Notes under the pieces: model-generated
Databases searched by the model: none
What the model was told of the DNA's origin: nothing
What the model saw: only the letters and a program-made list of their open reading frames with translations
Part shown: positions 11,177-43,996 of the stretch, piece after piece
How positions within the stretch are numbered: the first letter of the stretch is position 1
How the letters are laid out: each line of letters opens with the position of its first letter
Program-made: the position numbers and the translations under genes
Origin: Akkermansia muciniphila
Lineage (GTDB): Bacteria; Verrucomicrobiota; Verrucomicrobiia; Verrucomicrobiales; Akkermansiaceae
Reading direction: 5' to 3'
DNA length: 45,964 nt
NCBI GenBank assembly: GCA_945860285.1
Contig: CAMAQB010000015.1
Location: 1-45,964 of the forward strand

Positions 11177-12709
11177 TCACAGTCTGCGCCAGCTGTTGCC
11201 GTCCTCGTGCAACAGGTCGTCCGCCTCTTTGGGCCCCCAGGTTCCCGCCACATATTCCGCCATCGGCATGATCGTTTCCTGCTGCTGCCATGCGTGTACG
11301 ATGCAGTCAATGAATTTCCACGCCTCTTCCACCTCGTCGCGCCGCGCGAAAAGCGTGGCATCGCCGGCAATCGCATCGAGCAACAGTCGCTCATACGCCT
11401 CGGGGCTCGCCTTGCCGAAGCTGGTGCTGTATTGGAAATCCATCTTCACCGGTTCGAGCCGCAAGCTGGTGCCGGGGATTTTTGAAACCATGCGCAACGA
11501 GATCCCCTCGTCGGGCTGAATGCGAATCGCCAGCACATTGCCGCCGGGAACACCGGTGGGCAGGGCATTGAACAACACGCCGGGCGGTGATTTGAAATGC
11601 ACCGAAATCTCCGATGCTTTTTTCGGCAACTGCTTGCCCATGCGGATGTAAAACGGCACGCCGCTCCAACGCCAGGTGTCGATCATGATGCGCAACGCGA
11701 CATAGGATTCCGTCATCGATTCGGGGTCCACACGATCCTCCTCACGGTAGCCGGGCACTGTTTTGCCATCAACGCTGCCTTTGACGTACTGGGCTCTAAC
11801 AACATTTTTCAGCACCTTTTCAGGAGTGTCCCATTTGCGCAGCGAGCGGATGACCTTGACTTTTTCATCGCGCACGCCGTCGGCGCTCAAATCGGTGGGC
11901 GGCTCCATCGCCACCAGGCTGAGCAATTGCAGGAGATGATTCTGCACCATGTCGCGCAGAGCACCGGACTTGTCATAATAGCCGCCGCGCCCGCCTTCCA
12001 TGCCGAGATTTTCCGAGCAGGTGATTTGAATTTGTTCAATGTAGCGGCTGTTCCAAAGTGGCTCGAAGATCGCATTGGCGAAGCGCAGCACCATCAGGTT
12101 TTGCGCGGTTTCCTTGCCGAGGTAGTGATCGATCCGATAGGTATCCTTCTCATGAAAGGTGTCGTTCACCACCTGATTCAAATGCTGGGCGGTGGCGAGG
12201 TCGGTGCCGAATGGTTTTTCCACAATCACGCGCGACCAGCAGGAATCCTTGGCGTGATTCAAACCGGCGGCTTTCAACTGGGTGAGGATGTCGTCGAAAA
12301 ACTCCGGCGCGCTGGCGATGTAGAACAAACGGTTGCCCTTGCCGCCGCGGTCGCGATCAATGGCGTCGAGCTTTTCCGCCAGGCGACGATAGCCGTCGGC
12401 ATCGGTGAACTCGCTTTGATGATAAAAAATGTTAGGGGCGAAGGATTTCCATACCTCTTCGTCGTGTCCGGTGCGGGAAACCTTGCGGTTGATCTCATCC
12501 AGCCCGTCGCGGAACTCCTGGTCCGTTTTTTCACGCCGGGCAAAGCCGATGATTTTCACACCGGGAGGCATTTCGCCGCTGACGGTGAGATTGTACAGGG
12601 CTGGCACCAGCTTGCGGTGGGCCAAATCTCCCGTAGCACCGAAAATCACAACGGTGCAGGCTTCAGGGCGCGTGCGCGAAACCAGATCTTCTCGAAACGG
12701 ATTACTCAT
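11177..12709 (-). CDS. zwf: Glucose-6-phosphate 1-dehydrogenase
   Basis: A 510-residue NADP-dependent dehydrogenase that oxidises glucose-6-phosphate to 6-phosphogluconolactone. The nucleotide-binding motif GATGDLAHRK lies near residue 25, and the catalytic signature RIDHYLGKE is intact. The length is normal. It is first in a two-gene operon with opcA. A structured repeat element (12775-12948) lies 65 bases upstream of the start, in the probable leader or promoter region. Confidence 0.96.
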   Translation of the reverse strand: MSNPFREDLVSRTRPEACTVVIFGATGDLAHRKLVPALYNLTVSGEMPPGVKIIGFARREKTDQEFRDGLDEINRKVSRTGHDEEVWKSFAPNIFYHQSEFTDADGYRRLAEKLDAIDRDRGGKGNRLFYIASAPEFFDDILTQLKAAGLNHAKDSCWSRVIVEKPFGTDLATAQHLNQVVNDTFHEKDTYRIDHYLGKETAQNLMVLRFANAIFEPLWNSRYIEQIQITCSENLGMEGGRGGYYDKSGALRDMVQNHLLQLLSLVAMEPPTDLSADGVRDEKVKVIRSLRKWDTPEKVLKNVVRAQYVKGSVDGKTVPGYREEDRVDPESMTESYVALRIMIDTWRWSGVPFYIRMGKQLPKKASEISVHFKSPPGVLFNALPTGVPGGNVLAIRIQPDEGISLRMVSKIPGTSLRLEPVKMDFQYSTSFGKASPEAYERLLLDAIAGDATLFARRDEVEEAWKFIDCIVHAWQQQETIMPMAEYVAGTWGPKEADDLLHEDGNSWRRL

Positions 12710-12774
12710 GGGCGGGAACGGATTACATCCGATTACGGCGACGGGATAAAGAAGAAACTCTGGGCAGTCAGGAC

Positions 12775-12948
12775 ACGGCGATCAAGCTAGGGAGATGCTC
12801 AAAGGCAGGGATCGCTGTCCCTAGCGATCCGGTGGTGGCAGGATGGTTGACGGGTAATCATCCTTCCTGACTCACCGGCGTTGTTGGCGCACGAGAGCGC
12901 GGGGTGAAGGTAGATCACGTTAGGGTGATCCGCGACCGTCCCCCACCG
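12775..12948 (-). repeat. Dispersed structured repeat, copy 1 (upstream of zwf)
   Basis: About 170 bases that align over their whole length with 43698-43867. Shared blocks include ACGGCGATCAAGC at one end, CCTGACTCACCGGCGTTGTT in the middle and GTGAAGGTAG further on. One hairpin differs in sequence but not in pairing: here GGATCGCT pairs with AGCGATCC, while copy 2 has GGAACTTTC pairing with GAAAGTTCC. A second hairpin here pairs AGGATGGTT with AATCATCCT, and CCGGTG pairs with CACCGG around it. Strand is given as minus because both copies lie just upstream of minus-strand genes; the true transcribed strand is not known. Confidence 0.8.
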
Positions 12949-13087
12949 GAACGCTCGGAGATCGCCTTTTTGATTGCGACATTTCTTGTCAATCCTTTCC
13001 CTAGCTTGATCGCCGTGGCAGCGGGGGATTTCCGGACTTTCAGAGGATTCCATGGTTTTGACTCCACGAGGTTGGGCAGCCTGATCG

Positions 13088-13226: not shown

Positions 13227-13649
13227 TTACCCTTGGCCATCGATCACCACCCGCAGCAGTTTTTTGATTCGTTCGTGCTCTACGTCGGCATAGGGCATTT
13301 TCTCCGGGAACGACCAGACCACACCCGGCCAGGCGATGTCCTGGCTGTTGCGTCCGACAATGTGGATGTGCAATTGCCTGACCTGGTTGCCGATCGCCGC
13401 GACGTTGACTTTTTCCGCGTGCATGGCGTGTTCCATCCAATGGGAAAAGACCCTGATGCTGTCGCTGACTGCCGTATATTGCGCGTCGGACAAATGATGC
13501 AGTTCGGTGATTTCCGGCGGCACCATCGGCACCAGCAGCAGCCAGGGGAAGTGCGCCTGGTTTTTCAGCAACACGCGGCAGATGCCGTGACAACCGATGT
13601 CGGTGGAGCCGGAGGCGAGGCGTTCATTCAGCAAAAATCCGTCGTTCAT
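13227..13649 (-). CDS. HIT family protein
   Basis: A 140-residue histidine-triad hydrolase-like protein. The motif reads QLHIHIVGR, so the first His of the triad is Gln, while the two following His residues, including the catalytic one, remain. The downstream QDIAWPGVVWSF stretch is typical of the bacterial subgroup with this Q-H-H form. Family members hydrolyse nucleotide phosphoramidates or dinucleotides; the substrate here is unknown. ATG 13649 is preferred over an upstream start at 13730 that adds poorly conserved residues and overlaps tilS. It is divergent from tilS. Confidence 0.85.
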   Translation of the reverse strand: MNDGFLLNERLASGSTDIGCHGICRVLLKNQAHFPWLLLVPMVPPEITELHHLSDAQYTAVSDSIRVFSHWMEHAMHAEKVNVAAIGNQVRQLHIHIVGRNSQDIAWPGVVWSFPEKMPYADVEHERIKKLLRVVIDGQG

Positions 13650-13686
13650 GGGCTGACGGATAATTGATGATTGCCGGGAAATTGCA

Positions 13687-14664
13687 ATGCGATATGCTTG
13701 GCGGGTGCCCTTGAATCCTGTCGATGCCATTCACGCTCTCTGCCCGGGAAGGAAGAAATTTCTCGTCGGTGTTTCGGGCGGAGCCGACTCCGTGGCGCTG
13801 TTGCATCTTTTGCGCGACGCCGGCTGTGCGAAACTGGTCGTTTGTCATCTGAACCACCAGTTGCGGGGCAGGGAGTCCGACGCGGATGAAAATTTTGTTA
13901 GAATACTCAGCGCCCGGTTATCACTGCCCTTTCATGCCAACCGCGTTGATGTCGCCGCCATCGCCCGCAGCGAGGGGTTGTCGATCGAAACCGCAGCACG
14001 CCATGCCAGGCATCGCTTCTTCGCGGCTTGTGCCAAAAGCGAACGCTGCCCGCGCCTCATTCTGGCGCATCACGCCGAGGATCAGTCGGAAACACTGCTG
14101 TGGAATCTGCTGCGCGGATCGCATGGCTTGAAAGGCATGCGTGCCATGCAGGAATTGGAGGTCGATGGCCGCAGGCTCGTTTTGTATCGACCCCTGTTGG
14201 AGGTCCGGCGCGAACAATTGCGCGACTATCTGCATGAACATTCGATCACCTGGCGCGAGGATGCGTCCAATGTCGAGCCATTCGCCGTGCGCAACCGCCT
14301 GCGTCGCGAGGCATTGCCGCTCTTGGCCGACATCGCCCGACGCGATGTGGTGCCGATTCTCAACCGGCAGATTGATGCACAGGTTGATGTCGACGAGTTG
14401 CGCGAATGGATTGTCGCAACATGCCAGGTCTTCGATCCGCAGGGGCGGATTCACGTCGCCGCACTCAGGAAATTTCCCCCCGCAGTGCAGACGCTGGTTT
14501 TCCGTCATTATCTGGTCGGACAGGGAGTCGACGAAATCAGCCGCGGGGTGCTGCAGCGATGTCTTGTTTTGTTAGTCGATGAAAAGTGGTTCGCGGTGAA
14601 CCTTCCGGGAGACCGGCAATTGCGGAGGCGTGCAGGCAGGATTTTTCTACAAGGTGCCAAATGA
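13687..14664 (+). CDS. tilS: tRNA(Ile)-lysidine synthetase
   Basis: A 325-residue PP-loop ATPase that joins lysine to C34 of the CAU-anticodon isoleucine tRNA. The motif VGVSGGADSVALLHLLR is intact near residue 28, followed by HLNHQLRGRESDADE and HHAEDQSETLLWNLLRGS, all typical. The C-terminal region is shorter than in the E. coli enzyme, as in many bacteria. ATG 13687 could be replaced by GTG 13705. The stop codon opens a strong hairpin (14662-14704). Confidence 0.93.
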   Translation: MRYAWRVPLNPVDAIHALCPGRKKFLVGVSGGADSVALLHLLRDAGCAKLVVCHLNHQLRGRESDADENFVRILSARLSLPFHANRVDVAAIARSEGLSIETAARHARHRFFAACAKSERCPRLILAHHAEDQSETLLWNLLRGSHGLKGMRAMQELEVDGRRLVLYRPLLEVRREQLRDYLHEHSITWREDASNVEPFAVRNRLRREALPLLADIARRDVVPILNRQIDAQVDVDELREWIVATCQVFDPQGRIHVAALRKFPPAVQTLVFRHYLVGQGVDEISRGVLQRCLVLLVDEKWFAVNLPGDRQLRRRAGRIFLQGAK

Positions 14665-25545: not shown

Positions 25546-27713
<2,168 letters not shown>

Positions 27714-27830
27714 GTTCGAAACATGAAGCATCGCAGGCCGCTGTCAAGAGGGAAGAATGGCTGCCTGGATTTGGCGCAGGGCGGGGTGAATTGCGGGAAA
27801 TAGAGCCAGTGGGATGTTGACGGCGGCGGG

Positions 27831-43611: not shown

Positions 43612-43697
43612 GGCAAAAAAGGGGCGGGGAATGGAAGACGGCGGAAAAAACCACAGATTCCCCCGAATTGCACGAAAATTCAGCCGAGGTTTCCGTC

Positions 43698-43867
43698 ACG
43701 GCGATCAAGCGAGGGAGATTCTCAAGGGCTGGGAACTTTCTCCGAAAGTTCCGGTGGGGGCAGGATGGTTTGCTCATGCCCCTTCTTCCTGACTCACCGG
43801 CGTTGTTTGTGAACGCGGACGCGGAGTGAAGGTAGTTCACGACAGGATGGTCGCGACCACCCCACCG
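43698..43867 (-). repeat. Dispersed structured repeat, copy 2 (upstream of ABC-F gene)
   Basis: Aligns with 12775-12948 along its length, with small gaps. It shares ACGGCGATCAAGC, CCTGACTCACCGGCGTTGTT and GTGAAGGTAG. Hairpins in this copy: GGAACTTTC with GAAAGTTCC, GGGGCA with TGCCCC, GTGAAC with GTTCAC, and CGGACGCGG with CCGCGTCCG at the far end. The first hairpin differs in sequence from copy 1 while keeping pairing. Confidence 0.8.
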
Positions 43868-43996
43868 CGTCCGTTATATTGTCTGAGAAAGGCGGAAACA
43901 TCCTGCTCCGCTGTTTGATCCGCTGATCGCTGGTCACTCGCAAGATCAGCACTTTCACCGGTATGGCCTGTCAATTTTCTTGACTATCCACGGGGC

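Follow-up and report, generated by a model that had tools for sequence, protein, structure and literature searches.

The question raised by this locus is what kind of element a repeat of about 170 bp represents that occurs twice in the window, the whole stretch of 45,964 nucleotides analysed here. The original prediction placed the two copies at 12775-12948 and 43698-43867, described a stem in which the pairing is kept while the sequence changes, and considered either a structured RNA or a hairpin-dependent mobile element. Both copies were identified, with 77% identity over 170-174 bp (E=3e-29), and the stems pair as described, being 100% complementary in copy 1 (GGATCGCT/AGCGATCC, 12809-12816/12823-12830) and also in copy 2 (GGAACTTTC/GAAAGTTCC, 43732-43740/43744-43752). 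It is highly probable, in our judgement, that the repeat is a nested mobile element, with a MITE of the ISAs1 type on the outside and a REPIN-like unit within.

For copy 1, an inverted-repeat search revealed that the repeat is part of a larger element of 244 bp at 12774..13017 on the plus strand. The earlier limits of 12775-12948 were too short, and mark only the stretch that copies 1 and 2 still have in common. The element is intergenic, with the start of a G6PD gene (11177-12709, minus strand) on one side and a gene for a HIT-domain protein (13227-13730, minus strand) on the other, both assigned by Pfam. It is bounded by perfect terminal inverted repeats of 20 bp, with CACGGCGATCAAGCTAGGGA at the left end (12774..12793, plus strand) and TCCCTAGCTTGATCGCCGTG, 100% complementary to it, at the right end (12998..13017, minus strand). 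Comparison of the flanks identified a possible, decayed target duplication of 10 bp, in which GCAGTCAGGA on the left (12764..12773) would correspond at 6/10 positions to GCAGCGGGGG on the right (13018..13027). Inside the ends, a left REP-like hairpin of the MITE subtype (GGCAGGGATCGCTGTCCCTAGCGATCCGG, 12804..12832, plus strand) is followed by a spacer (12833..12945) containing a smaller inverted repeat, GGCAGGATGGTT/AATCATCCTTCC (12837-12848/12856-12867), and by a right REP-like hairpin (12946..12964, minus strand). The latter, CCGGAACGCTCGGAGATCG--CC, is damaged, and a copy-to-copy comparison revealed that it is devoid of seven bases, TTCCCTG, which are present in other copies.

Copy 2 is a decayed MITE copy at 43697..43880 on the plus strand, the right limit being approximate. 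It has retained the left terminal repeat (CACGGCGATCAAGCGAGGGA, 43697..43716, plus strand; 19/20, one mismatch) and the left REP-like hairpin (GGCTGGGAACTTTCTCCGAAAGTTCCGG, 43727..43754, plus strand), which is of the ordinary REP subtype with the loop TCC, while the right hairpin and the right terminus are gone. The two copies in the window thus carry different hairpin subtypes.

A search with the originally described stretch identified 59 related matches in the host genome (3.7 Mb, 162 contigs), among them full-length copies 91-94% identical to copy 1. The 20-bp end matched the genome at 94 positions with up to three mismatches, compared to one match in the reversed control. When every left end was paired with a right end, 31 elements were obtained, a few of them from relatives. 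Most MITE copies have a length of 244-251 bp and are multicopy; they contain no transposase gene and are too small for one. Just outside the ends of 16 MITE-type elements of the host genome, exact or near-exact (at least 8/10) direct repeats of 10 bp were identified, for example GCTGACGGCT, CTCGTTCGTC and CCGGGTAATT. Most of these duplication-flanked elements are 247-251 bp long and a few 370-613 bp, the longer ones consisting of tandem inner units enclosed by a single pair of duplications. For two adjacent elements on contig C10, one common outer duplication, GACAGGTTGG, was found. In relatives (loci L086 and L099), similar ends with exact 10-bp duplications surround other interiors. Three further elements of the host genome (G000:C21:11759-12050, C70:664-1019 and C140:4530-4831) have similar 20-bp ends and 10-bp duplications with different lengths and inner ends, and are probably additional MITE subfamilies of one and the same ISAs1-type insertion sequence (IS), described next.

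A complete IS of 1,276 bp with the MITE-type ends was identified at G000:C106:4639-5914. It encodes a transposase of 388 amino acids, which matches the NCBIfam ISAs1 model with E=6e-108 and contains the Pfam domain DDE_Tnp_1 with its associated domain. No target duplication was found at the flanks of this intact IS. Additional IS fragments, 99-100% identical, stop at contig borders, the expected pattern when a draft assembly contains recent, multicopy IS. Fragments with 78% and 61% identity to this transposase adjoin similar ends in two further species of the genus (G002 and G007). A second candidate, consisting of two ends 1,210 bp apart at C7:10792-12001, was rejected, the open reading frames appearing unlike this transposase by eye and giving no match in the protein search.

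Since 16 elements carry 10-bp target duplications and a complete ISAs1-family IS has identical ends, the element is, by its sequence, classified as a MITE of an ISAs1-family IS. Members of the ISAs1 family generate duplications of 8-10 bp, and the 10-bp duplications identified here fit this range. The shared ends suggest that the MITE is very probably moved in trans by this ISAs1-type transposase. In such a mechanism, the DDE-type IS transposase would bind and cut the 20-bp ends in trans, and the MITE would insert at new, mostly intergenic sites with duplication of 10 bp of the target. The suggestion of a mobile element was upheld by the ends and the target duplications. Compared to known ISAs1-family IS (NF033564), the parent IS is alike in transposase family and in its 1,276-bp length, whereas the copies in the window are devoid of a transposase gene and have only the terminal ~25 bp in common. 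Similar to IS-derived MITEs like Correia elements and TIMEs (PMC4133298), the element is short and multicopy, without a transposase gene, has the same terminal inverted repeats as an IS, is flanked by target duplications, is mostly intergenic and has a strong predicted folding. It differs from them in that the parent belongs to the ISAs1 family, that the interior is an independent paired-hairpin repeat and not a deletion remnant of an IS, and that some copies hold tandem arrays of the inner hairpins.

The interior consists of two REP-like hairpins in inverted orientation, each with a GGCAG tag, a stem of about 9 bp and TCC in the loop. The left hairpin follows the pattern GGCAGGGAxxx...TCC...xxxTCCGG, with the inverted partner located about 85-120 bp away (about 85-150 bp for doublets throughout the genome), and in some cases the inner unit forms tandem arrays with a period of ~182 bp. 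Inner units lacking the 20-bp ends were also identified: two arrays on C58, others at C9:43718 and C1:57128, on C119 and in other genomes. So as not to select for pairing, hairpins were collected with a pattern that specifies nothing but tag, loop and tail (GGCAGGG N6-9 TCC N5-7 TCCGG). This resulted in 102 hairpins in the host genome, compared to none in its reversed control, a number far above chance. The further copies which the original prediction had asked for were thus found, not only in the host but also in at least nine related genomes, where the tag-loop-tail counts were 104, 54, 24, 23, 21, 19, 14, 9 and 5. In two genomes of the same genus (G003 and G005) the count was zero, and across all twelve genomes the controls gave a single match. 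When one form of the hairpin was compared to 84,980 species representatives, 46 loci in seven genomes were obtained, all of which are Akkermansiaceae, Verrucomicrobiae or Verrucomicrobia MAGs. Judging from such relatives, the host genome probably also belongs to the Akkermansiaceae. One species of the genus (G009) has the identical architecture with the stem GGACCG/CGGTCC. The spacer varies from species to species, and the tag is GCAG, now and then GTAG. No exact match to the hairpin or the ends was found in IMG/VR, where a phage source was sought, and the hairpin string led only to unrelated papers in the literature. The inner hairpin repeat is older than the MITE and independent of its ends. 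One inner unit from this Akkermansiaceae family would have been captured between ISAs1-type ends in the host lineage and amplified along with them, and recombination or slippage may have produced the tandem inner-unit arrays.

Several other arrangements were observed around these units. In CAIVKO010000145.1 (L174:687-1016), one hairpin is present five times at an exact spacing of 49 bp and faces a single inverted copy; this series is a tandem REP array. On C58 (L032) and C161 (L115), several inner-unit arrays have another left flank in common, CCTGCGTCCCGCAGGC...CATCCTGCCGGGCGCGGGTTTTCGC..., a further dispersed repeat. In two MITE copies, at L040 (C99:4973-5430) and L137 (C87:1-343), the left hairpin is interrupted at its CTAG by a foreign insertion, which is about 209 bp long on C99; contig C87 begins within it. 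This insertion might represent another small mobile element, with the palindrome as its target, or the two copies might be a single locus that was duplicated.

The compensatory changes are real within this hairpin family. The three stem pairs left free by the search pattern were Watson-Crick in 82% of the cells in a set of 60 distinct sequences, compared to 54% (sd 2.5) with shuffled partners. In an alignment of 30 sequences, which omits bulged variants, the 9-bp stem, with its outermost pairs set by the search anchors, was 91% paired, and double-sided changes were found in 36 cells, compared to 11.4 in shuffles. The covariation score was 0.418, compared to 0.176 in shuffles, and none of 500 shuffles reached the same value, in a statistic that ignores relatedness; with slid partners, the score was at most 0.14. 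The covariation proposed for the stem is thereby borne out across the wider REP-like family and across species, but not by the two copies in the window alone, between which there is no point-by-point compensation. Of the outcomes named beforehand as speaking against the original prediction, none came about in full. In some MITE copies the left stem is broken (GGAACGCT/AGCGATCC), which implies that the constraint is loose there and that the inner hairpin is not strictly required for movement of the MITE. The part of the original prediction which made mobility dependent on the hairpin found no support, since the MITE would move via its terminal repeats. The pairing would have been kept because the REP acts, or once acted, as a hairpin at the DNA level, which is probably recognised in single-stranded form.

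A stem with covariation might also point to a structured regulatory RNA, riboswitch-like or an sRNA, located upstream of the neighbouring genes. The predicted fold of copy 1 is strong (z -7.9), its position upstream of the G6PD gene would suit such a role, and the hairpin covariation is true. However, the opposite strand folds equally well (z -8.0), a stability on both strands that the terminal inverted repeats alone would largely bring about, and the fold of copy 2 is barely above that of shuffled sequences (z -1.3). The elements end in transposon termini with 10-bp target duplications, and their neighbouring genes are unrelated. By simple ORF-based gene calls, 18 of 19 elements lie between open reading frames, and these gaps include all three arrangements (tandem, divergent and convergent). 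In agreement with the original remark that no known riboswitch class was recognised, Rfam gave no match in the element, at either gathering or permissive thresholds. The only Rfam match in the window is a TPP riboswitch (RF00059, 71 bits) at 27606-27719 on the minus strand, at the start of a 689-aa open reading frame (25546-27615). Equal folding of both strands, the lack of an Rfam match and the intergenic positions make a riboswitch role unlikely and argue for mobile DNA, so that the structured-RNA half of the original proposal found no support; as an explanation of the whole repeat, a regulatory RNA is extremely improbable. Local effects on neighbouring genes are possible.

The same hairpins could be read as transcription terminators or mRNA-stabilising elements which were selected at gene ends, mobility being secondary. 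They are G+C-rich and intergenic, and at times directly follow stop codons; yet the sequences read have no T-run after the hairpin, and many copies are located upstream of genes. The lack of the hairpin in G003 and G005, members of the same genus, also argues against such a function. This explanation is highly improbable, while a secondary role as terminator or stabiliser may exist at some loci.

The inner unit resembles REPINs, BIMEs and GTAG-tagged REPs (PMC3116915, PMC3733652) in its unpaired tag, its variable stems with the pairing kept, the inverted doublets with the tag outside ('HH' type), the tandem clusters and the extragenic location. It differs in the tag GGCAG, which fits only the degenerate GYAG form, in a stem that has at most 9 bp and closes on TCC, in a spacer of often ~100 bp or more, and in that no RAYT linked to the inner unit was found at 46 loci. 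The GYAG form is allowed in some GTAG-type families, and REPs of the GTAG superfamily have been reported in the verrucomicrobium O. terrae (PMC3733652).

As a rule, REPINs have an associated RAYT, and the anatomy of an inverted, extragenic REP doublet occurring in tandem clusters (PMC3116915) would also agree with the whole unit being a REPIN moved by this Y1 tyrosine transposase, the terminal repeats being incidental. Y1_Tnp domains are abundant: the host genome has 16 matches, and seven relatives together have 76. However, the hairpin was present in the inspected flanks of only two of 46 RAYT loci from eight genomes, at distances of ~1.3 kb and ~0.2 kb, a proximity that we estimate to be at about chance level. 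The RAYT genes of the host adjoin other palindromes: at three loci (L148, L149 and L150), several copies of CCTGGGGCAACGCCCCAGG and CCGGTGGCTGACGCCACCGG surround RAYT-type genes, and these palindromes probably represent the RAYT-linked REP families of this genome. The 10-bp target duplications are also unlike single-strand transposition of the RAYT/IS200 type; the IS200/IS605 mechanism is not known to make such duplications. RAYT-driven movement of the whole unit is thus very improbable. Because the linkage to RAYT is, by this estimate, no better than chance, the inner unit is designated REPIN-like on the basis of its sequence features, and is not classified as a RAYT-linked REPIN. A tentative possibility is that the GGCAG hairpins form an Akkermansiaceae class of REP/REPIN-like repeats without a RAYT, which would owe its spread to an undescribed enzyme or to hitch-hiking within the ends of other elements, the ISAs1-type MITE being one such vehicle.

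Both layers of the nested element belong to known kinds, and only their nesting and the lack of a linked RAYT are unusual. An ISAs1-type MITE enclosing a REPIN-like unit accounts for about sixty repeats in the host genome and for a family of palindromes across freshwater Akkermansiaceae, for which no described REP family was found in the literature searched. It also illustrates that a hairpin with genuine covariation can be mobile DNA, and that covariation alone is insufficient for calling a structured RNA. The persistence of CGTC-tagged REPs without a dedicated transposase has been left as an open question (PMC3733652). If the hairpin family described here is truly without a RAYT, it would provide a test case for how REPs persist that lack a dedicated transposase.
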